This document shows, piece after piece, positions 23,300 through 63,864 of a stretch of 64,000 bases of DNA. A program made the position numbers and the translations under genes. Each line of letters opens with the position of its first letter. Positions within the stretch are counted from its first letter, which is position 1. The stretch is from Solobacterium moorei. Its GTDB lineage: Bacteria; Bacillota_I; Bacilli_A; Erysipelotrichales; Erysipelotrichaceae. Below the pieces are notes generated by a model that was not told the DNA's origin, ran no database searches, and saw only the letters and a program-made list of their open reading frames with translations. The DNA lies in the NCBI RefSeq assembly GCF_036323475.1, contig NZ_AP028934.1:2480001-2544000 (forward strand). Reading direction: 5' to 3'.

Positions 23300-23394
23300 T
23301 TTTTTACAAAAAAATGATAATCTTTGTTGACAGGATGGTTAGCGTTTGCTAACATACAGTTAGCACAGGCTAACTGATGTCTCACTCTTTCCAT
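23284..23394 (-). CDS. Possible small ORF (36 aa) disrupted at its 3' end by IS1202
   Basis: ATG 23394 has AAAGGAG six bases upstream. The product starts MERVRHQLACANCMLANANH and contains one CxxC; no family is recognised. Its last codons come from inside the IS1202 end. With both elements removed the frame would continue past the repeat and end in a different tail (...VKKFSIYF). The coding text also creates the paired GTTAGC-N4-GCTAAC palindromes noted separately, so one of the two readings may be fortuitous. Low confidence. Confidence 0.25.
   Translation of the reverse strand: MERVRHQLACANCMLANANHPVNKDYHFFVKNLNRS
23300..23327 (+). repeat. 28-bp direct repeat, right copy
   Basis: Identical to 21743-21770. 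Confidence 0.88.
23327..23374 (+). promoter_or_regulatory. Promoter-like sequence with two tandem GTTAGC-N4-GCTAAC palindromes
   Basis: TTGACA (23327-23332), a 17-base spacer and TAACAT (23350-23355) look like a promoter. GTTAGCgtttGCTAAC (23338-23353) covers the -10 box and GTTAGCacagGCTAAC (23359-23374) follows 21 bases later, two helical turns away, as expected of a dimer-binding operator pair. The regulator is unknown. Confidence 0.4.
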
Positions 23395-23594: not shown

Positions 23595-23624
23595 TTCGTT
23601 TCGAAAAGTGATATGATTAGACTC

Positions 23625-23697
23625 GTGAACAGGGGTGCATGCATGCTGAGAAAAACCCTTATCACCTGATCTAGGTAAAGCTAGCGTAGGGAGTTCA
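23625..23697 (+). promoter_or_regulatory. TPP (thi-box) riboswitch
   Basis: Conserved pieces appear in order: GAAC closing stem, AGGGGTGC, GCTGAGA, ACCCTTATCACCTGATCT, GGTAAAGCTAGCGTAGGGA and GTTC. The 3' aptamer strand GCGTAGGGA can alternatively pair with TCCTTACGC at 23708-23716 upstream of the thiT ribosome binding site, which offers a switch between two folds. Thiamine pyrophosphate binding is expected to reduce thiT expression. Confidence 0.95.
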
Positions 23698-23740
23698 GTT
23701 TTTTAATTCCTTACGCCTTCAAAATGGAGGTGTATTTTTT

Positions 23741-24442
23741 ATGAAAAACGATCAGATTAAAAAGATTGCATTCATGGCAATCTACATGGCGTTATATGTA
23801 GCGCTGAAAATGGTAGGAAATATGATACCTTTCCTACAGATGCCAAATGGTGGATCTATTGAACTGGAGTTAATTCCACTTATGATTGCATCGTATCATC
23901 TTGGTTGGAAGTATGGAGCTCTCTGTGGACTAGCTTCATTCTTACTAACAATTGTATTAGGTTTTCCAATGTACTTTGTTCAACCAATACAGGTTGTATT
24001 AGACTATGTACTACCAATCAGTATTGTTGGAATGGTTTCATTGTTTAAACCATTTGAACATGCAAGCAAACCAATTGTATTAACTGTGGTATCTGTAATT
24101 GGTTTAACTGCTTGTGTTGCTGTGTATTACTCTTATGGTATGAATCTAATGGCTTTGGTGGGTGGTGTCATACTAGCTGCCTTAGTGATTGCATTAGGTC
24201 TATTCCTAACGAGCACAAAGGGGCACTTTGGTATTGTGATTGTGATGATCATCAAATACTTCTCTACAGTTATTTCTGGTGCCTATTTCTGGGCAGAGGG
24301 CACTGCGGCAGGAAGCTTACCGGCGTGGACATTTTCCCTAGGCTATAACCTCTGGTACAACTTAGTGACGATGATTGTCTGCTTATTGATGGTTCCAGTA
24401 CTAATGAGCAGAATTAAAAAAGCAAATATCCAAGGAATGTAA
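23741..24442 (+). CDS. thiT: Thiamine-specific ECF transporter S-component ThiT
   Basis: The protein has 233 residues; GGAGG precedes ATG 23741, and a TPP riboswitch lies directly upstream. Family motifs are LQMPNGGSIELELIPLMIASYHLGWKYG, then FVQPIQVVLDYVLPI and, near the end, KYFSTVISGAYFWAEGT and SLGYNLWYN with the aromatic thiamine-binding residues. ThiT is normally about 180-200 residues. This one has an additional stretch of about 45 residues (near 100-150, VSVIGLTACVAVYYSYG...IALGLFLTST) that looks like an extra pair of membrane helices. It captures thiamine and docks onto a shared EcfA-EcfA'-EcfT module. A terminator follows. Confidence 0.93.
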   Translation: MKNDQIKKIAFMAIYMALYVALKMVGNMIPFLQMPNGGSIELELIPLMIASYHLGWKYGALCGLASFLLTIVLGFPMYFVQPIQVVLDYVLPISIVGMVSLFKPFEHASKPIVLTVVSVIGLTACVAVYYSYGMNLMALVGGVILAALVIALGLFLTSTKGHFGIVIVMIIKYFSTVISGAYFWAEGTAAGSLPAWTFSLGYNLWYNLVTMIVCLLMVPVLMSRIKKANIQGM

Positions 24443-25343: not shown

Positions 25344-26312
25344 ATGAAAGTTGGTATCGTTGGAAATGGAATGATAGTCCCTATCGCAATTGAAGCAATG
25401 CTACGAGCTGAGATTGGAGTAACAGCGTTATGGTGTCGGAATGGATCAAAGGGAAAACCAATTGTTGAGAAATATCATATACAAAATCAATATACAGATT
25501 ATCAAGTGTTCCTAGGTGATGATTCATTTGATACGGTCTATATTGGTTTGACCAATACACTACATTATCAATATGCAAAGGACGCAATCCTTGCAGGAAA
25601 ACATGTCATCGTAGAAAAACCTTTTACTGTATCTGTAACAGAAGCGAAAGAACTACAAGCTCTAGCATTAAAATATGGGTGCATGTTGTTTGAGGCAATC
25701 CTCTCAAGATATAGTCAAAACTATGAACATCTACGAGAAGAATTACCAAAGATTGGAAATATCAAACTAATACAAGCTAACTTTAGTAAATACTCTAGTC
25801 GCTATGATAAATTTCGAAAGGGTATCATGACACCTACCTTTGATAAAGCATGTGGCGGTGGTGCCCTTATGGATTTGAATGTATATAACATTCACTTTGT
25901 TGTAGGTTTATTTAGTATGCCCAAGAAGGTGCAGTATTATCCAAATCTAGCAGAAAATAGTGTCGATACATCAGGTATATTGATCATGGAGTATCCTGAC
26001 TTTCAAGCAGTATGTACTGCCGCGAAAGATTCTTCATCTGATCCATTTGTGATAATTCAAGGGGAAGAGGGTACAATTGTGTATCCCGAAAGACCAGGAT
26101 ATGTACGATATGGAGAGCGTCATGATCGTCTTACAAATCTCACGGAAGAAATTGATGTTGTTGTAGAGGAAGATCCAATGAAAAATGAATTCCTATATAT
26201 GCAGGAAATCATAGATACAAAAAATACAGAACAGATGAACGCATGGTTAGAGAAATCGATTGCGACAGTGGCTGTTTTAGAACAAGCATTACAATCCATT
26301 TCACAGGGTTAG
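25344..26312 (+). CDS. Gfo/Idh/MocA family oxidoreductase
   Basis: The protein has 322 residues, with GGGAG before ATG 25344. The N-terminal Rossmann domain starts KVGIVGNGMIVPIAIEAML. The family's catalytic motif is HVIVEKPFTVSVTEAKEL (EKP). The C-terminal alpha/beta domain includes ACGGGALMDLNVYNIHFVVGLF, where the His of the G-D-x-x-x-H pattern is kept as NVYNIH. These enzymes use NAD(P) to oxidise or reduce sugars, inositols or their derivatives; the substrate cannot be told from sequence alone. It is the last gene before the terminator-promoter cassette at 26305-26406. Confidence 0.9.
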   Translation: MKVGIVGNGMIVPIAIEAMLRAEIGVTALWCRNGSKGKPIVEKYHIQNQYTDYQVFLGDDSFDTVYIGLTNTLHYQYAKDAILAGKHVIVEKPFTVSVTEAKELQALALKYGCMLFEAILSRYSQNYEHLREELPKIGNIKLIQANFSKYSSRYDKFRKGIMTPTFDKACGGGALMDLNVYNIHFVVGLFSMPKKVQYYPNLAENSVDTSGILIMEYPDFQAVCTAAKDSSSDPFVIIQGEEGTIVYPERPGYVRYGERHDRLTNLTEEIDVVVEEDPMKNEFLYMQEIIDTKNTEQMNAWLEKSIATVAVLEQALQSISQG

Positions 26313-26340
26313 ATAATCGTATCTAGCCCTGTGTTAATTT
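26305..26340 (+). terminator. Terminator after the oxidoreductase gene
   Basis: CACAGGGTTAGAT pairs with ATCTAGCCCTGTG and is followed by TTAATTT. A diverged copy lies at 33332-33366. Confidence 0.65.
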
Positions 26341-26353
26341 ATTAACGCATTTC

Positions 26354-26406
26354 TTGCAAGAAGAAAAACATGAGCGTATAATTCAGTTAGTTAAACTAAA
26401 CTAACT
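26354..26406 (+). promoter_or_regulatory. ecfT operon promoter and overlapping operator (cassette copy A)
   Basis: TTGCAA (26354-26359), a 17-base spacer and TATAAT (26377-26382) are followed at the expected transcription start by AGTTAGTTaaactaAACTAACT (26385-26406), an inverted repeat of the form GTTAGTTW-N4-AAACTAAC. A repressor bound there would block initiation. The half-site is reminiscent of DtxR/MntR-type boxes, which is inference only. Confidence 0.7.
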
Positions 26407-26422: not shown

Positions 26423-27106
26423 GTGAGATACAGGATTAATCCGCTTGTTTTAATTTTCTATAATATATTGATCCCATGCATTTTAATGTTTGCACATGAT
26501 AGATGGATACCTTTATATTTCTTTGTTGTAAGTAGTCTATTTTTGCTTTACATGAAGAAATATAAAAGACTATGTAAGACTATCGTAATTACAATTTTAT
26601 TCTACTTTGGAGAGCAGCTTTTGATGTTGAGTAACGTTGAGGTAATGCAGTTTGTCTCGATGCTATTTATGATGGTTGTTCGATTGATGCCAACGTATAT
26701 TGTGGCTCTTATTTTAATATATGATTATCAACCGTCTGAGGTAATCTCTGCCTTACAGAGTATCCACGTGCCAAGAGCGTTCATTATAGCGCTAAGCATT
26801 ACACTGCGATATATACCAACATTCTTTCGAGAATTACGTTATATCAATGAGTCGATGCGTCTACGTGGTATCCGTTTTGAAATAAAAAATATAGTAAAGA
26901 GTTTTGGATATTTTGTAGTGCCACAGTTATTCCGCTGTTTGATTTTGGCAGATGAATTAACATCTGCTGGACTCTGCAAGGGGATTGATTGTACAGAAAG
27001 AAGAACGTCATATTACAATATTCGCTTTGGTATGAAGGATGCGCTCGTTACAATTGCGATTTGTTTGGGGCTAGTAGGAGAGATGCTATGGATTCGTATA
27101 TTGTAG
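26423..27106 (+). CDS. ecfT: ECF transporter membrane component EcfT
   Basis: The protein has 227 residues. GTG 26423 is used, with AGAGG five bases upstream (the overlapping ATG at 26421 is followed at once by a stop). Five to six hydrophobic segments are visible, and the coupling region has the two EcfT ARG-like motifs SALQSIHVPRAF and MRLRGIRFE (ARG replaced by LRG), then LTSAGLCKGID. EcfT links the S-component to the ATPases. It is the first gene of a six-gene operon; the fused ATPase gene starts 19 bases before its stop. Length is slightly short for the family, usually about 260. Confidence 0.9.
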   Translation: MRYRINPLVLIFYNILIPCILMFAHDRWIPLYFFVVSSLFLLYMKKYKRLCKTIVITILFYFGEQLLMLSNVEVMQFVSMLFMMVVRLMPTYIVALILIYDYQPSEVISALQSIHVPRAFIIALSITLRYIPTFFRELRYINESMRLRGIRFEIKNIVKSFGYFVVPQLFRCLILADELTSAGLCKGIDCTERRTSYYNIRFGMKDALVTIAICLGLVGEMLWIRIL

Positions 27107-28503
27107 AGGGTAAGAACATTTCATTCCAATATCAAGACAGCTCTGAAGGAATTCAAGATATCCATTTTTCACTAAAGCCTGGTGAAACCATCTTGGTAAC
27201 TGGTAATAGTGGTAGTGGTAAATCTACATTCCTGAAATGTCTTAATGGACTAATACCGCGTGTCGTAGAAGGAAAACTACAAGGAGAAATCTTACTCAAT
27301 CATCAAAATACAAAGGATATGAGTATGGCAGAGATTAGCCGTCATATCAGTTCTGTATTCCAAAACCCACGTAGTCAATTCTTTACAACGAATACAACCT
27401 CCGAGCTTGTATTCAGTATGGAGAATTATGGTTGTAAGAAGGATATGATGGAAGCACAGCTTCAGAAAGTCACTGCACTTCTCAAAATTCAAAAATTATT
27501 AAATCGTGATATTTTTCAATTATCCGGAGGAGAGCGTCAGATGGTTGCGATAGCCTCCGCGATGATGTTGGGACAAAAAATCATCTTGTTAGATGAACCA
27601 TCTGCCAATCTTGATTATCACAATACCTATGTATTTAGAGGGCTGGTTGAGAAATTAAAACAAGAAGGCTATACCGTCTTGATTGCAGATCATCGTTTCT
27701 ATTATCTAAGCGGACTCATCAGCCGTGTTTTTCTATTTAATGATGGAAAGATGCAAATCTTCGATAGTGAGCAGATGTTTAAAAATTCAAACTATGATAC
27801 GCGAAGCTTTGATTTATTTGCAATGGATATTCCATTTCAAACACCTAGTGTGAATAAAGAAAAAGTTCTTTCGCTAGTGGATATTTCATACAAGGATATC
27901 TTACAAGATATATCGCTGGGTTTCTTTCCCAACGAAGTCACCGCAATTGTCGGTACAAATGGAGTTGGCAAGACAACACTTGCAAGATTACTCTGTAAGA
28001 GTATTGCATGCACGCATGGAAAGATAATCGGAGATATGCCATTCTATATTATGCAAGATGCGGATTACCAACTGTTTGGCACATCCGTACAGGCAGAGCT
28101 TGAAATCGCAGATCATACGATCAATCAGAAAGAGATTCAGGATGTGATGGATTATCTACAACTTACAAAATATGCAGATACACATCCATTCTCTTTGAGT
28201 GGTGGACAGAAACAGCGTATACAGGTCGCATTGGGAATCTTGAGCAATCGTAAAGTTATCATTTTCGATGAACCTACCAGCGGATTGGATCTTTCATCCA
28301 TGCGTAGGGTCGCAAGAGAGATTCAAGAATTAAAAAAGAAAGCATGTGTCATCGTCATATCTCATGATTATGAGTTTATTCGCTATATCAGTAATCGTGT
28401 TGTGTATTTAAAGGATACGACAGTGAAGAAAGATATTCCGCTAAATGCAGAACATCTGTCCGAATTCAATCAAATTTTTATGGAAATGAGGGATGAATTA
28501 TGA
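27088..28503 (+). CDS. Double-domain ECF/cobalt-type ABC ATPase (fused EcfA-EcfA')
   Basis: The protein has 471 residues. ATG 27088 follows TAGGAGAG and overlaps ecfT. The first ABC domain has Walker A GNSGSGKST (about residue 33), signature LSGGERQMV and Walker B IILLDEPSANLD. The second has Walker A GTNGVGKTT (about 290), signature LSGGQKQRI and Walker B VIIFDEPTSGLD. Both keep their Q-loops (VFQNPRSQF; IMQDADYQLF) and H-loops (ADHRF; SHDYEF). Both sites therefore look competent. Fusion of both ATPases in one chain occurs in YkoD-type and other group I ECF systems. The stop overlaps the first S-component start (ATGA). Confidence 0.93.
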   Translation: MDSYIVEGKNISFQYQDSSEGIQDIHFSLKPGETILVTGNSGSGKSTFLKCLNGLIPRVVEGKLQGEILLNHQNTKDMSMAEISRHISSVFQNPRSQFFTTNTTSELVFSMENYGCKKDMMEAQLQKVTALLKIQKLLNRDIFQLSGGERQMVAIASAMMLGQKIILLDEPSANLDYHNTYVFRGLVEKLKQEGYTVLIADHRFYYLSGLISRVFLFNDGKMQIFDSEQMFKNSNYDTRSFDLFAMDIPFQTPSVNKEKVLSLVDISYKDILQDISLGFFPNEVTAIVGTNGVGKTTLARLLCKSIACTHGKIIGDMPFYIMQDADYQLFGTSVQAELEIADHTINQKEIQDVMDYLQLTKYADTHPFSLSGGQKQRIQVALGILSNRKVIIFDEPTSGLDLSSMRRVAREIQELKKKACVIVISHDYEFIRYISNRVVYLKDTTVKKDIPLNAEHLSEFNQIFMEMRDEL

Positions 28504-29081
28504 ATTTGAAGATGAAGGATTTTGTATTACTTGCTTTACTAACAGCCTTATATGTAATCGTATACTTTGTGGGAGCGATGTTGATATCGCTGATAGGGCC
28601 ATTTGGTGATTCGATTAGCGCAGGTGTATGCGGACTACTATCAGGGGTCATACTTGTATTTATCACTCGCAAGATTGGTAAGATGTGGCAGTTTGCCATC
28701 ATGGAACTTATCGTGATGGCTGTATTCGCACTCATGGGTTCAGGCTATTTACCGTGGTTTATTACATCCATGGTTGGTGCTGTACTAGCTGATGTTATCG
28801 CATCTACATCAGAAAAGCCTAGTGTATTAAAGATTGCGATTGCGTCGGGTATTCTTCATGTTGGTAATGCTTTAGGTGGTATCATTCCTGCATGTTTCTT
28901 TGCGGAACAATATATGAATGAATGGATTGCAAGAGGACAAAAGCCAGAACAAATGCTAGCAATGGTAAAAGCGGCTCAAGGTACAATGGGTATTCTTGCG
29001 ACAATCATTACCTTCATACTTTCCGTGATTGGCGTATACATTGGCTATTCAATATTAAAGGGACATTTAAAAGAGAAATAA
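28500..29081 (+). CDS. ECF-type S-component, Trep_Strep/MptD family (copy 1)
   Basis: The protein has 193 residues; the start overlaps the ATPase stop by four bases. About five to six membrane helices are visible. Family text: MKDFVLLALLTALYVIVYF, then LISLIGPFGDSISAGVCGLLSG, GSGYLPWFITSMVGAVLADVIA and GNALGGIIPACFFAEQYMNEW. It fits the Trep_Strep integral membrane family (PF09605), now treated as a putative ECF substrate-capture subunit of unknown substrate. It is about 85 percent identical by eye to the next gene, indicating a recent tandem duplication. The substrate may be a metal chelate or haem-like compound, judged from the operon context only. Confidence 0.85.
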   Translation: MNLKMKDFVLLALLTALYVIVYFVGAMLISLIGPFGDSISAGVCGLLSGVILVFITRKIGKMWQFAIMELIVMAVFALMGSGYLPWFITSMVGAVLADVIASTSEKPSVLKIAIASGILHVGNALGGIIPACFFAEQYMNEWIARGQKPEQMLAMVKAAQGTMGILATIITFILSVIGVYIGYSILKGHLKEK

Positions 29082-29114
29082 TAGAAACGGTTTTATAGAA
29101 AAGAGGGATAAACA

Positions 29115-29696
29115 ATGCGTTTGAAAATGAAAGATTTTGTATTACTTGCTTTACTAACAGCTTTATACATCATTGTATATTTTGTGGCGATGATGTTAAT
29201 TTCGCTTATGGGCCCATTTGGGCATGCGATTAGTCCAGGTGTTTGTGGTTTGTTATCTGGTGCAATCTTAATATTTATTAGTCGTAAGATTGGTAAGATG
29301 TGGCAGTTTACACTAATGGAGCTCATCATTATGGGCGTATTCGCACTGATGGGAGCTGGCTATCTGCCTTGGTTTATTGCATCAATGGTTGGTGCAATAT
29401 TAGCAGATGTTATCGCATCAACGTCTAATAAACCAAGTGTACTAAAGGTTGCAATTGCGTCAGGTCTTATTCATGTAGGCAATGCTTTAGGTGGTATCAT
29501 TCCTGCATGTTTCTTTGCAGAGCAATATATGAATGAATGGATCGCAAGAGGACAAAAGCCAGATCAAATGTTAGAGATGGTAAAAGCAACACAAGGTACC
29601 ATGGGCATTCTTGCGACAATCATTGCATTCATTTTATCCGTGATTGGCGTATACATCGGTTATTCAATATTAAAGGGACATTTGAAAGAGGACTAA
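29115..29696 (+). CDS. ECF-type S-component, Trep_Strep/MptD family (copy 2)
   Basis: The protein has 193 residues, the same length as copy 1, and starts 33 bases after it with its own GAGGG site. The C-terminal 80 residues are almost identical to copy 1 (GNALGGIIPACFFAEQYMNE). Differences cluster in the first helices: GAMLISLIGPFGDSISAGV versus AMMLISLMGPFGHAISPGV. The Asp-to-His change in the PFGD/PFGH loop may matter for substrate binding. Its stop directly abuts the ABC transporter start at 29697, so transcription and translation are tightly linked. Confidence 0.85.
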   Translation: MRLKMKDFVLLALLTALYIIVYFVAMMLISLMGPFGHAISPGVCGLLSGAILIFISRKIGKMWQFTLMELIIMGVFALMGAGYLPWFIASMVGAILADVIASTSNKPSVLKVAIASGLIHVGNALGGIIPACFFAEQYMNEWIARGQKPDQMLEMVKATQGTMGILATIIAFILSVIGVYIGYSILKGHLKED

Positions 29697-31499
29697 ATGG
29701 AAATCGAAGAGAAAATAAAAGAAGATGTTAAGCGGTCTATAGAAACGAAGAAAAAAGATGCCATTAATCCAAGCATGGTTAAAAAATGGTTATTCTCCTT
29801 CGCCCCACAGCTACAAGGCAAAATGCGTTTATCGATTATACTTGCATGTTTTGGTGAAAGCTTAAAGTTCACATCGTATTTCTTTGCGGCATATGTCGCA
29901 AATGCTGTTATTACAAATCATATTGATTTACAAAAGATTTACTTATATGGAGGATTAACACTGCTGGCACTTGCATTACAATGTACACTAACATGTTTAT
30001 CTAGCATGAAGAGTCATCGAATTTCATTCGAGATTCTTAGAAGCATCCGAAATAAACTAAGTGAGAAATTAGAACGGGTTCCACTTGGGTATGTTACATC
30101 AACACCAATCGGATATTATAAAGCGCTAATCGTCGATCGTGTTAGTTCTTTGGAAGATTGGATTGCACATGTCATGCCAGAGTTTCCCTCTCGCTTATTA
30201 CACCCAATCCTAGCAACCATCTTGTTGTTTGTTGTGGATTATCGCTTGGGTTTAGCATGTTTTGTGAGTGTTCCATTTATCATTCTTGGATTTATGCTGA
30301 TGTATTACAAGAGTGAAGAGCGTATGTATACTTGGTTAAATTCCAATCAGGATTTAAATGCTAGAATCATTGAATATGTAAATGGGATTCATGTTATTAA
30401 AACATTTGGACAGAGTAGACGTAGTTATCAAAAGTTTACAGAATCAGTAAACTACTACTTCTCCTCTACATTAGACTGGTGGAGACAGAGTTGGATTGCG
30501 ATGGCTTTACTATTTGCGTTTGTAAATTCGCCAATCCTTGGAACATTACCGGTTGGCTTATATTTGTATTCACATCAAATCATCAATATGTGGCAGTTAA
30601 TGCTAGGCTTAATCCTACCGTTATCGATTATTCCAAATGCATTCCAATTAATGATGAGTATGGAAATATATTCTTCGATTGAAACAGGCTTCCGTATGAT
30701 TCGCAAAGTACTTACAATGCCAGAGCTTGTAAGACCTAGTAAAGATGTAACGCTATCAGATAAATGTTATCAATTTGAGAATGTATCCTTCTCTTATGAA
30801 AAAGGAATTGAAGTATTACATGATATCAACTTTGAAGTAAAACCAAACTCTGTATTTGCGATTGTTGGAGAAAGTGGAAGTGGTAAGTCCACAATTGCGA
30901 AGTTAATGGCTGGATTCTTTGATGTAGATGCTGGAACAATTTCCTTTGGCGACCAAGATGTTAAAAATATACCTACAGCACAACTCATGAAGCATGTTGC
31001 ATATGTTGCACAAGACAATTTCTTATTTGACACAAGCATCCGTGAGAATCTAAAGGTTGCAAAAGCAGACGCAACGGATGAAGAAATTCAAAGAGCCTTA
31101 CAAGCTGCCAACTGTCTAGAACTGATTGAGCGATTACCAAATGGCTTAAATACAAATGCGGGTGATTGTGGTAAGTTTCTTTCAGGTGGTGAAAGACAAC
31201 GCATTACGCTTGCAAGAGCGATGCTAGCAGATGCGAAGTGTATCATCCTCGATGAAGCTACCGCATATGCGGATGTTGAAAATGAAGCGAAGATTCAGGA
31301 AGCGCTGAGTCGATTAATGAAAGATAAGACATTGATTGTTGTGGCACATCGGTTGAATACAATTGTTGGTGCCGATCAAATTATGGTATTAGACCGTGGC
31401 AAGATTGATAACATCGGCACACATCAAGAATTAATACAAAATTCTTCTGTATATCAGAAACTATGGCAGAGTTACAGTGGCAAGGAGGTGGCCGAATGA
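29697..31499 (+). CDS. ABC half-transporter (fused permease-ATPase), subunit 1
   Basis: The protein has 600 residues. A cytoplasmic N-terminal tail of about 45 residues (EKIKEDVKRSIETKKKDAIN) precedes six membrane helices of the type I exporter fold. The ATPase domain has Walker A GESGSGKST (about residue 395), signature FLSGGERQRITLARAML, Walker B CIILDEATAYAD and the switch His VVAHRLNT. The catalytic Glu is present. The next gene's start overlaps its stop (ATGA), which indicates a heterodimer with it. Exporter-fold pairs next to Trep_Strep ECF genes are known from streptococci and may in fact import siderophore-like substrates, like IrtAB; the direction cannot be read from sequence. Confidence 0.9.
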   Translation: MEIEEKIKEDVKRSIETKKKDAINPSMVKKWLFSFAPQLQGKMRLSIILACFGESLKFTSYFFAAYVANAVITNHIDLQKIYLYGGLTLLALALQCTLTCLSSMKSHRISFEILRSIRNKLSEKLERVPLGYVTSTPIGYYKALIVDRVSSLEDWIAHVMPEFPSRLLHPILATILLFVVDYRLGLACFVSVPFIILGFMLMYYKSEERMYTWLNSNQDLNARIIEYVNGIHVIKTFGQSRRSYQKFTESVNYYFSSTLDWWRQSWIAMALLFAFVNSPILGTLPVGLYLYSHQIINMWQLMLGLILPLSIIPNAFQLMMSMEIYSSIETGFRMIRKVLTMPELVRPSKDVTLSDKCYQFENVSFSYEKGIEVLHDINFEVKPNSVFAIVGESGSGKSTIAKLMAGFFDVDAGTISFGDQDVKNIPTAQLMKHVAYVAQDNFLFDTSIRENLKVAKADATDEEIQRALQAANCLELIERLPNGLNTNAGDCGKFLSGGERQRITLARAMLADAKCIILDEATAYADVENEAKIQEALSRLMKDKTLIVVAHRLNTIVGADQIMVLDRGKIDNIGTHQELIQNSSVYQKLWQSYSGKEVAE

Positions 31500-33244
31500 A
31501 CTACTTTCGTAGATTATTTGAATTAGTTGGAAAAGATAAAGTGAAATTTATCTTTGGCTTATTCTTTGCATTCTTTAAGAATTTCAGTTTTATGTTTATC
31601 TTTGGTGCTTTGTATATTGCATTCTTAAACATACATGCATTAACAGCTACTGTAATATGGAATTGTGTAATGATCATGATAGGTGGTATCTTATTCCACT
31701 TTGTATTCCGTTACTTGGAAGATATCCTTGTTTCAGCTGAAGGCTATGTCATGTTTAGAAATTTCCGCCTGCAGGTGGGAGATGAGTTGAAGAAAGCACC
31801 ATTAGGATATTTCGATGACGCAAAACTAGGTAATATTCAAGGTGCTATGACAACATCGATAAACGCACTTGAAAACTATACGATGATGTTAGTTACCGGT
31901 GTGATTGCCGGATTTGGAATTTCAATCTTATTAACAATTACGATGTCAAAGATGAATGTGTCGTTAGGATTATTCATGATTCCAGTGTTAGTGGTACTAT
32001 CGTTTACCTTAGGGAAGCTTTATAAAATCGCAATGAGAAATGTTCCGCTACAACACAAAGTTGAACAAGAGATGAATTTTGCGGTAATCGATATGATTCG
32101 TGGTATGTCAGTTCTACGGACATATCCGATTAACGAGGATAGTCCTGTTAAGAATATGATTCAAGAGAAGGCAAAAGACCTTTATGCAGAGAAAAAGAAG
32201 GTAGATATCCATTGTGAAGTAGAATTTTCATGGCGTGCTAAGGTTTATAGTTTTATTGTGAATGCAGCAAGTGTTATTTTGATTATTCTTACAGTTCATT
32301 TATACATGCATGAACAGATTACCTTTGCGAATTGTATGACGATGTTAGTGGGTTCCTACTTAATATTCTTGGGACTTGCGCCACTAAGCGATACAGCCTT
32401 CCTATATGCAAAGATTCCTGGTCAACAAAAGTACTTGGATGATGTATTCCAAATCCCTCAATTAGCAGAGGGGAATCAAACTACAATCAATGGACCTTTA
32501 GATATTCACTTTGACCATGTATGGTTTGGATATCGTAAAGATACGCCTGTGATAAAAGATCTCAGTTTTAAAATCAAACAAAATGAAAAGGTCGCAATCG
32601 TAGGACCTAGTGGATGCGGTAAGACGACAATTGTCAATCTTCTCTCTCGATTCTGGGATGCAGATAAGGGTGCGATATATCTAGCTGGAAAGGATATTCG
32701 CGAGTATACAGTAGAGACATTATTTAAACAGATGTCTGTCGTATTCCAAGATGTGTATTTATTTAATGATACGATTATGAATAACATCCGTTTCGCAAAA
32801 CCAGAAGCGACAGATCAAGAAATCTATGATGTGTGTCAGAAAGCGCGCTGTGCTGAGTTTATATCAAAACTTCCACAGGGATATGAAACTGTCATTGGCG
32901 AAGGTGGTGCAAATCTCAGTGGTGGTGAAAAACAACGCATCAGTATCGCTCGAGCATTATTGAAGGATGCACCTATCATTCTGCTGGATGAAGCCACATC
33001 AAGTGTAGACCCAGAAAATGAGGCAGAAATTCTAGCTGCGATTGATGCGCTATGTAAAGGGAAGACAGTGATTTCGATTGCACATCGTATCAGTACAGTA
33101 GAAAGTGTAGATCATATACTTGTCATTGATGATGGTTCTTTACAAGAAGAAGGAAAACATGCGGATTTAATTCAGAATGGCGGAATCTATGCCGGGTTTA
33201 TCAAATCTCGTAAAGACGCAAAAGGTTGGCGAATAGAGAATTAG
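31496..33244 (+). CDS. ABC half-transporter (fused permease-ATPase), subunit 2
   Basis: The protein has 582 residues. ATG 31496 is preferred to an upstream in-frame start at 31463 because GGAGGTGG precedes it and it overlaps the upstream stop by four bases. Six membrane helices (about residues 15-310) are followed by an ATPase with Walker A GPSGCGKTT, Q-loop VFQDVYLF, signature LSGGEKQRISIARALL and Walker B IILLDEATSSVD, with switch His SIAHRIST. Both subunits keep the catalytic Glu and an intact signature, so this is a symmetric-looking heterodimer. It is the last gene of the six-gene operon. Confidence 0.9.
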   Translation: MNYFRRLFELVGKDKVKFIFGLFFAFFKNFSFMFIFGALYIAFLNIHALTATVIWNCVMIMIGGILFHFVFRYLEDILVSAEGYVMFRNFRLQVGDELKKAPLGYFDDAKLGNIQGAMTTSINALENYTMMLVTGVIAGFGISILLTITMSKMNVSLGLFMIPVLVVLSFTLGKLYKIAMRNVPLQHKVEQEMNFAVIDMIRGMSVLRTYPINEDSPVKNMIQEKAKDLYAEKKKVDIHCEVEFSWRAKVYSFIVNAASVILIILTVHLYMHEQITFANCMTMLVGSYLIFLGLAPLSDTAFLYAKIPGQQKYLDDVFQIPQLAEGNQTTINGPLDIHFDHVWFGYRKDTPVIKDLSFKIKQNEKVAIVGPSGCGKTTIVNLLSRFWDADKGAIYLAGKDIREYTVETLFKQMSVVFQDVYLFNDTIMNNIRFAKPEATDQEIYDVCQKARCAEFISKLPQGYETVIGEGGANLSGGEKQRISIARALLKDAPIILLDEATSSVDPENEAEILAAIDALCKGKTVISIAHRISTVESVDHILVIDDGSLQEEGKHADLIQNGGIYAGFIKSRKDAKGWRIEN

Positions 33245-33331
33245 CCAATATGCATGAATGGTAGATAATCATATTGTTCAATGTAGCTTTTCAGACAATG
33301 TCTTTGTTCAATCAAGCATTACAGTTCATGC

Positions 33332-33366
33332 AAGGGGTAGATGTGAATATCTGCCCTTTGTTAATT
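33332..33366 (+). terminator. Terminator of the ECF/ABC operon (cassette copy B)
   Basis: AAGGGGTAGAT pairs with ATCTGCCCTTT and is followed by GTTAATTTG. It is a diverged copy of the hairpin at 26305-26340. Confidence 0.6.
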
Positions 33367-33380
33367 TGTTAACTTAGTTC

Positions 33381-33432
33381 TTGCAATGAGTATTACATGG
33401 GCGTATAATTCGGTTAGTTTAATAAAACTAAC
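33381..33432 (+). promoter_or_regulatory. Second promoter-operator cassette (copy B), upstream of pflB
   Basis: TTGCAA (33381-33386), 17 bases, TATAAT (33404-33409), then GTTAGTTTaataAAACTAAC (33413-33432), a perfect 8-bp inverted repeat with a 4-bp spacer. The arrangement is identical to 26354-26406. The transcript would have a leader of about 190 bases before pflB; 33433-33600 contains no gene. Confidence 0.65.
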
Positions 33433-33610
33433 TTCTGAAAATGAGAGTGTTGCACGTGCTTGCATGTTATCAAGATTATTAACTAACATTGTTGGAATTT
33501 CAAACAAAATAGGGTAAAATTCACAAGTAAAAAAAATCTGATAATATCATTGGACGTATAAACCGCTTTCATTTACAATAAAAAATGTTAGGTAGACGGA
33601 GGAGAAAAAA

Positions 33611-62547: not shown

Positions 62548-62615
62548 ACAAAGAAATAAATCGGAACTATAATTTCTGACGGAAATGGGGTTTTCCAAGA
62601 TTATAAATCTAAACC

Positions 62616-62678
62616 GCTATAAGTGCTGATAACTCCTGTAACTTCTTTTTGTTACGGGTATCAGCATTTTTATATAAG
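62616..62678 (+). promoter_or_regulatory. Structured leader / attenuator-like hairpin before the antiporter gene
   Basis: GTGCTGATAactccTGTAAC pairs with GTTACgggTATCAGCA around TTCTTTTT, and the stem is followed by TTTTTAT right before the gene's ribosome binding site. The position suggests attenuation or a riboswitch expression platform. The upstream 62548-62615 has no recognised aptamer class. Confidence 0.5.
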
Positions 62679-62685
62679 GAGAGTT

Positions 62686-63864
62686 ATGTTATTTAGTTTT
62701 GCGATGATGATTTTAGTTAGTGTAGTATTTGCGATGATTATGCGTAAGGTAGGTTTACCAAATTTATTAGGGTATTTACTAACTGGAATCATATTAGGAC
62801 CCTTTGTATTCAACGTAATTGATACAACAACCTTTCAGATTTCATCTGATATTCGCCAGATTGCGTTAATGATTATTTTGATGCGTGCCGGTTTGAACTT
62901 ACAGATATCAGATTTAAAGAAGGTTGGATCGTCTGCGTTGCTGATGTGTTTTGTGCCAGCTAGCTTTGAGATTCTAGGACTGATGATTCTAGCGCCAATC
63001 TTTCTGCATTTAGATCTGTTGAATGCCGCAATACTTGGAACCGTATTAGCTGCGGTATCTCCTGCTGTTGTTGTACCACTTATGTTAAGACTAATGGACG
63101 AAGGATATGGCACAAAAGAGGGTATTCCTCAACTAATTATGGCTGGTGCTTCAATGGATGATGTGTATGTTATTGTACTATTTACATCATTATTGACACT
63201 TGCCAAGAGTGGAGAGTTCAATGCGCTATCCTTATTACGTATTCCAACATCAATCCTATTTGGAATTGTTTCTGGTATTGTCTTGGGGTATGTACTTTGT
63301 AAGCTGTATCGGCTATTGAAGTTACCTACTGGGATTGAACTTGCAAGCATGTTTGCGATCGGGATGGTACTTATTACAATTGAAAGAATAATGACGGGTA
63401 TGATTGGATTCTCTGGTTTACTTGCTATTATGGCTTTAACAGCTACGATACGTCATATCAAACCAGAGATGGCGGATAAATACTCTGCTGTTCTTGCGAA
63501 GCTATGGCAGCCTGCTGAGATCTTCTTATTTGCGTTAGTAGGTGCGAGTGTACGAATTGATTATGCATTATCTTTTGGACCTGTTGTTTTGGTTGTCATT
63601 ATTCTAGCACTAGTATTCCGTATACTTGGTGTATATCTGAGTATCATGAAAACAAAGTTCAATATGAAGGAAAGGATATTCACAATGGGGGCATATCTTC
63701 CAAAGGCAACGGTACAAGCTGCGATTGGAGGACTTGCATTAGAGGCAGGTCTTGCTAGTGGGGAATTAATTCTGACGGCTGCGGTCACCGCAATCCTATT
63801 TACTGCACCGCTTGGAGCTATCTTTATTTCACTTACCTACCGCAACTTTTTACAAAAAGTGTAG
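62686..63864 (+). CDS. Cation:proton antiporter (CPA family)
   Basis: The protein has 392 residues. ATG 62686 follows AAGGAGAG; an in-frame upstream start lies inside the leader hairpin. About 12 membrane helices are seen. Na+/H+ exchanger features include IMRKVGLPNLLGYLLTGIILGPFVF at the start, RAGLNLQISDLKK, then SPAVVVPLMLRLMDEGYGTKEGIPQLIMAGASMDDVYVIVLF with the DD-type Asp pair in the core helix of this family. No C-terminal TrkA_N domain is attached. It exchanges Na+ or K+ for H+ and contributes to pH or ion homeostasis. The orientation and ion cannot be told from sequence. Confidence 0.92.
   Translation: MLFSFAMMILVSVVFAMIMRKVGLPNLLGYLLTGIILGPFVFNVIDTTTFQISSDIRQIALMIILMRAGLNLQISDLKKVGSSALLMCFVPASFEILGLMILAPIFLHLDLLNAAILGTVLAAVSPAVVVPLMLRLMDEGYGTKEGIPQLIMAGASMDDVYVIVLFTSLLTLAKSGEFNALSLLRIPTSILFGIVSGIVLGYVLCKLYRLLKLPTGIELASMFAIGMVLITIERIMTGMIGFSGLLAIMALTATIRHIKPEMADKYSAVLAKLWQPAEIFLFALVGASVRIDYALSFGPVVLVVIILALVFRILGVYLSIMKTKFNMKERIFTMGAYLPKATVQAAIGGLALEAGLASGELILTAAVTAILFTAPLGAIFISLTYRNFLQKV

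Follow-up and report, generated by a model that had tools for sequence, protein, structure and literature searches.

An operon of Solobacterium moorei encodes two neighbouring S-components of the Trep_Strep family, S1 and S2, together with one EcfT, one fused EcfA-EcfA' ATPase and a pair of exporter-fold ABC half-transporters. The reading we favour, at a probability of about 0.55, is that these genes encode an equibactin-like ECF plus YbtPQ/IrtAB-type importer of an iron compound, repressed by a DtxR-type regulator, in which S2 keeps the ancestral role and S1 probably serves a second, related ligand. The tandem pair offers a natural comparison: two 86%-identical receptors that presumably share one energising module and differ at gate residues that almost the whole clade retains.

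One ECF operon with two neighbouring S-components

The window, a stretch of 64,000 nucleotides, covers positions 2,480,001 to 2,544,000 of a single-contig genome of 2.6 Mb. The genes for EcfT, the fused EcfA-EcfA', S1, S2 and the two exporter-fold half-transporters (ABC1 and ABC2) lie on one strand between 26423 and 33244 (Table 1). Adjoining genes abut or overlap, except that 33 bases separate S1 from S2. The operon's ATPases have the full set of nucleotide-binding motifs, and an EcfT accompanied by two EcfA-type ATPases with intact motifs marks the operon as encoding an ECF transporter. Compared at full length, S1 and S2 score 125.2 and 129.1 bits against the PF09605 profile (cut-off 28.7) and 135.8 and 138.2 bits against TIGR02185 (cut-off 76.45). 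The initial annotation had described two 193-residue S-components lying head to tail in the same operon as one EcfT, one fused two-ATPase EcfA-A' and one exporter-fold ABC pair; this composition is confirmed, as are the coordinates, lengths and order of the S-components, and both pass the two family cut-offs.

Table 1. Features of the ECF operon and of the duplicated promoter-operator block (positions in the window).
Feature	Position	Strand	Remarks
Terminator-like hairpin of the upstream oxidoreductase gene	26302..26333	+	Within the duplicated block
ECF operon promoter TTGCAA-N17-TATAAT	26354..26382	+	Consensus match only
Putative operator palindrome GTTAG-N10-CTAAC	26386..26405	+	Directly 3' of the -10 box
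EcfT transmembrane component	26423..27106	+	GTG start; PF02361, 50.8 bits vs cut-off 25
Fused EcfA-EcfA' ATPase	27088..28503	+	Intact: two Walker A, two signature, two Walker B motifs
S1, Trep_Strep S-component, derived copy	28500..29081	+	GDSISAG gate segment, A159
S2, Trep_Strep S-component, conserved copy	29115..29696	+	GHAISPG gate segment, T159
ABC1, exporter-fold half-transporter	29697..31499	+	Closest solved half-transporter YbtP, then IrtA
ABC2, exporter-fold half-transporter	31496..33244	+	Closest solved MsbA and YbtQ, tied
Second block copy: oxidoreductase gene tail, hairpin, promoter, operator	33263..33450	+	
Second GTTAG-N10-CTAAC, predicted operator	33413..33432	+	

S1 has changed at conserved positions of the probable gate loops

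S1 and S2 share 166 of 193 residues (86%), a likeness between neighbours that cannot be due to chance. By their sequences they are an old duplication under purifying selection, since the differences are dispersed, dS is about 0.85 (0.851, with dN 0.079) and dN/dS is about 0.09. The initial annotation had described the C-terminal halves as almost identical; the bias that it noticed is only a trend: residues 1-96 hold 18 of the amino-acid differences and residues 97-193 the other 9 (binomial p 0.086). Synonymous differences are split 32 to 23 between the gene halves (p 0.23). We considered gene conversion between the two copies, as dS falls from 1.35 in the first half to 0.55 in the second, and do not claim it: neither the split by halves nor the longest stretch of identical codons (12; permutation p 0.085) is significant, and conversion need not be assumed because the DNA identity, 481 of 582 positions, is dispersed along the gene. 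A pseudogene or an assembly artefact was rejected, the genome being a single contig, both frames being intact and the codon differences being 55 synonymous versus 27 non-synonymous.

The two proteins were compared with an alignment of 13 orthologous S-components (A3; without those of G072 (L042), G667 (L103) and L104). Sixty-six columns are conserved in at least 12 of the 13 orthologs, and S1 and S2 differ at four of them, columns 37, 38, 41 and 159, all changed in S1 (H37D, A38S, P41A and T159A) and none in S2. At the position that the initial annotation had read as PFGD versus PFGH, His is present in 12 of 13 orthologs and a nearby Pro is invariant; S2 has both and S1 neither. The change is real, but the segment concerned, residues 33-41, follows helix 1 (residues 5-32 in the model) and not helix 2 as had been supposed. 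Two further conserved columns are altered in both copies (Q123N and K188G), and H120, W86 and R145, invariant residues elsewhere, are retained. The AxxxA motif in helix 1 of S-components docks on EcfT; S1 and S2 have it as ALLTA, and the 13 orthologs have A-L-L-[TS]-A. Because both copies are under purifying selection and have kept ALLTA, both probably still dock on the single EcfT.

The phylogeny proposed in the initial annotation joins S1 and S2 with full support and places the change after duplication on the S1 branch (length 0.16, versus 0 for S2). In Tajima-type rate comparisons S1 was the more changed copy with 13 of 13 outgroups, and p was below 0.05 with only one of the 13. The structure prediction proposed alongside was made for each protein alone, with AlphaFold2 and 15 sequences, and gave models of near-equal confidence (pLDDT 92.0 for S1 and 91.1 for S2) with much the same helices. 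Both resemble S-components most, ThiT among them: against solved structures, ThiT 4muu_A gave Z 11.1 with an rmsd of 3.1 over 155 aligned residues for S1, and Z 10.3 with an rmsd of 4.1 over 160 for S2. The best-ranked matches of both models are S-components, with methane monooxygenase subunits scoring nearly as high. Foldseek alone gave the models no significant match by E-value, and S2, used as a sequence query against solved structures, returned chance antibody matches only.

In the S1 model, residues 33-41 link helix 1 to the next long helix, and residues 149-159 form the final short helix that precedes helix 162-186. We take these segments to be loops L1 and L5 in the usual naming of S-components. 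In FolT, according to the text available of PMC4525288, the L1 loop is the gate of the site and L5 its support. Since the S1 changes fall in L1 and L5, S1 is likely altered at the lid, the two loops that would cap the binding site; the gate is placed here by secondary structure and by published S-components.

Orthologous operons have a single S-component

Among 272 genomes of the same family, three match at an E-value of 1e-20 or better, two copies being found in the present genome and one each in G072 and G218; the same three genomes match at 1e-25 among 392 of the phylum. In the genus of Streptococcus pseudoporcinus, two of 118 genomes match at 1e-20, with one copy each. Within the genus of the present genome, a first sample of 60 genomes gave five with a match at 1e-3, of at most 26% identity outside the genome itself, and G072, which lies outside that sample, has a 52% ortholog. 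A scan of species-genome contigs with a four-sequence alignment found 13 loci, the 12 genomes other than G218 having one clade member each; the scan used two peptide patterns and misses distant members. One of the genomes, G634, has an additional 33%-identical match on another contig. In all, the 15 other genomes that have the S1/S2 clade have it as a single copy (15/15). A plasmid search yielded one record, from E. faecalis, with 38.6% identity. We also asked whether tandem duplication is a common habit of PF09605 and found no support for it: of 245 genomes sampled with the profile, seven had matches, 19 in total, and S1/S2 is the only neighbouring pair among them, which makes the tandem arrangement unusual.

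We collected 14 orthologous loci (L042 and L063-L075), which span Lachnospiraceae, Streptococcus, Peptostreptococcus, Erysipelotrichaceae and others. The order EcfT-EcfAA'-S is found in 14 of 14, with one clade S-component each, in contrast to S1 plus S2 here. Exporter-fold ABC genes occur in 11 of the 14 stretches and lie directly 3' of the S gene in eight. In Streptococcus ictaluri (L070, 10308-12024) the second ABC gene is broken up into two frames; the S-component of this locus is the only one of the 13 orthologs with Arg for the conserved His.

In the tree, whose inner forks are weak, S1 and S2 group with Lachnospiraceae and not with the Erysipelotrichaceae locus L074, and the operon's ATPase scores highest against Lachnospiraceae loci. 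For these two reasons a lateral origin of the operon is likely, and the S1/S2 duplication may therefore be older than its stay in the present genome.

The family annotation of PF09605 S-components is 'putative' and names no substrate. Titles and abstract openings in the literature searched gave neither tandem S-components within one ECF operon nor a substrate for Trep_Strep/MptD. The E. faecalis genes ef0580/4 are presumably the genes of our locus L104. In the available part of PMC9120511, deletion of ef0580/4 left peptide use unaffected among the rows listed, and the accessible text of PMC11109136 names neither PF09605 nor MptD.

A putative DtxR-type operator precedes the operon

A genome search for GTTAG-N3..14-CTAAC found 42 places, 17 with spacing N6, 8 with N10, 8 with N9 and 9 with the other nine spacings together. 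The N9 places are variants of one repeated 19-mer, and N9 was excluded from the background statistics; the 17 N6 and 8 N10 sites compare with a mean of 1.0 over the nine background spacings. N10 sites lie upstream of the ECF operon, in the block downstream of it, upstream of DUF3793-flavodoxin, and upstream of FeoA-FeoA-FeoB, which has an N6 site as well. Further N10 sites stand before the gene of a 511-aa protein, twice in a repeated stretch and once inside a gene. A frame of 928 aa begins 23 bases after the site of the repeated stretch in L135 (around 3675), and its first 478 aa match no Pfam family. A FeoB-associated protein has a site upstream with one arm mismatch. Two N6 sites precede a ZnuA/TroA-type metal transporter, and one precedes a Fur-family gene, which overlaps a frame that by eye is rubrerythrin-like (L131, 2085-3021). 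N6 sites also stand before several genes without a plain iron link, and two lie inside reading frames. The N6 and N10 classes have the same arms, and FeoA has both.

An N6 palindrome likewise lies upstream of two more Trep_Strep ECF operons in this genome, in L130 (site 1968) and L124 (site 2001), and the metal regulon may for that reason include several S-components of the family. Within the window, 23338-23374 holds two N6 palindromes (GTTAGCGTTTGCTAAC and GTTAGCACAGGCTAAC) on a promoter-like TTGACA...TAACAT; no clear gene follows before a TPP riboswitch, and a transposase-like gene lies just to the left. A gene has possibly been lost here beside the insertion element.

The operator of the ECF operon is of the N10 class and that of the orthologous operons is N6. 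With at most one mismatch, GTTAG-N6-CTAAC occurs at 8 of the 14 orthologous loci, namely in same-genus G072, which has two N6 sites before EcfT, and in seven others; it is absent upstream in the remaining six (L064 and L068-L072). One of these, Butyrivibrio X503 (L064), has DUF3793-like and flavodoxin-like frames, recognised by eye, just upstream. Across 20 upstream stretches of the 14 loci, which omit the motif-less inner gene starts L065:5832, L066:5789 and L067:3829 and three stretches of L104, N6 is exact in 7 and within one mismatch in 11, and each other spacing reaches at most 2. Ten of the 20 exact N6 matches in 217,098 bp lie in the 3,200 bp of these upstream stretches.

We found one DtxR-family gene (PF02742) in the genome; its product has 124 aa and the first two domains only, and EqbA of Streptococcus equi is likewise described, in the text available, with the first two domains only. 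EqbA is presented there as a metal-responsive DtxR-like repressor without an SH3 domain, with the operator core GTTAG-N6-CTAAC; its operator contains GTTAGATGTATCTAAC, a perfect N6 site, and its binding responds to Fe2+, Zn2+ and Mn2+ (PMC3672683). By analogy, the DtxR-family protein may be the regulator that acts on GTTAG...CTAAC of the ECF operon. If placed in an iron or metal regulon by this conserved operator, which agrees with a DtxR-type site from the literature, the clade would gain a testable substrate class.

The promoter-operator block is duplicated

The segment 26233-26424, from the last 80 bases of the oxidoreductase gene to the EcfT start, recurs between the ECF operon and a pyruvate formate-lyase gene (33611). 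The second copy includes the promoter TTGCAA-N17-TATAAT at 33381-33409. The local alignment of the two copies scores 115, versus at most 38 in 200 shuffles, with 81% identity over 94 nt (E 4.6e-18), and just these two copies exist genome-wide. This recurrence points to an earlier duplication of a larger segment, most of whose second copy would since have disappeared. The duplicated block raises the idea that S1 and S2 arose from duplication of the whole operon, but no simple deletion yields the order S1-S2-ABC-ABC-block. Through the duplicated block, pflB may be under the same, partly metal-dependent, control.

Relation to known iron importers and a proposed mechanism

Against solved structures, ABC1 matches YbtP (6p6i_A) at 1.1e-84 and IrtA at 8.4e-79, once higher-scoring eukaryotic full transporters, the two halves of which score together, are set aside; ABC2 matches MsbA at 1.1e-73 and YbtQ at 1.6e-72. 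YbtP and IrtA are the best solved half-transporter matches of ABC1, and YbtQ is among the best for ABC2; the pair differs from YbtPQ and IrtAB in sharing an operon with an ECF importer and in that the lipid exporter MsbA is about equal for ABC2. The iron-type operator, together with the likeness of the ABC pair to YbtP/IrtA, indicates the substrate class. The cargo would be a compound that contains iron; a ferric chelate or a siderophore is the most likely, haem the alternative.

A haem ECF transporter, SiaFGH, is reportedly the subject of a group A streptococcal study. LhaSTA of Staphylococcus lugdunensis, in the description available in PMC7299338, is an iron-repressed ECF importer of haem; it differs in having three genes and a Fur box instead of a DtxR-type operator. 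A further parallel by description comes from Streptococcus equi, where the locus for equibactin, eqbA-N (PMC3672683; Heather et al. 2008), combines an importer, the three-gene eqbHIJ, with a YbtPQ-like pair, eqbKL. According to the parts of that source available, iron import that depends on equibactin requires eqbHIJ, and the iron-toxicity phenotype was not abolished when eqbKL was lost. Unlike the locus so described, the present operon has no NRPS genes, an N10 operator and a doubled S-component. If the analogy holds, import would fall to the ECF part here, and the ABC pair could help import or export the chelator.

On the favoured reading, a DtxR-type regulator would repress the operon through the palindrome when metal is plentiful and would leave it under iron-poor conditions, so that the operon is expressed. 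S2 would bind its ligand outside, topple to EcfT and release the ligand inside, as in the general ECF mechanism; S1 probably would too, both using the one EcfT-EcfAA' module. S2, with the gate and pocket residues conserved in its clade, would do the ancestral job. S1, with an altered lid, the EcfT-docking motif kept and purifying selection, would most likely handle a second iron compound, and its ligand may thus differ from that of S2.

Alternative explanations

Two related substrates, a hetero-oligomer and dosage had been left as options by the initial annotation. The evidence now leans to divergence, with four conserved columns changed in S1, and against pure dosage. Dosage would mean that S1 and S2 bind the same iron compound and that the extra copy raises the receptor number per EcfT module. 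It agrees with 86% identity, a shared operon, purifying selection on both copies and near-equal model confidence with much the same helices, but it predicts conservation in both copies, and for this reason the four positions that 12 or more of the 13 orthologs conserve and S1 alone has altered, three of them within five L1 residues, count against it; we regard it as somewhat unlikely. More tentatively than the favoured reading as a whole, we raise the possibility that gate-loop substitution is changing specificity within one operon, S1 being either neofunctionalised, with the one metal-repressed ECF module importing a second, perhaps foreign, iron chelate, or a docking-competent decoy that tunes S2.

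That S1 does not transport at all, or binds weakly and docks on EcfT as a competitor, a sensor or a hetero-oligomer subunit of S2, would fit the loss of the conserved L1 His and Pro with ALLTA kept, and also S. ictaluri, whose S-component is the sole His-less ortholog in A3 and whose second ABC gene is split. The dN/dS of about 0.09 and the retention of H120, W86 and R145 speak instead for a maintained protein; we regard this reading as improbable. We consider it similarly doubtful that the cargo is a vitamin-like or peptide compound and the operon merely happens to lie in the metal regulon. Such a cargo would suit the palindromes before genes without a plain iron link, and other PF09605 operons of the genome adjoin TetR- or AraC-like genes (by eye), from which it is likely that the family has several substrates; against it, the N10 form marks FeoA-FeoA-FeoB and flavodoxin, the operator recurs before orthologous operons, and ABC1 is YbtP/IrtA-like.

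Other features of the window

At 23621-24442 a TPP riboswitch (74.3 bits) is followed by a ThiT-like thiamine S-component, which scores above the Pfam cut-off and below the NCBIfam cut-off. At 62572-63864 a fluoride riboswitch (41.4 bits) stands at the start of a gene that by eye resembles a cation/proton antiporter.
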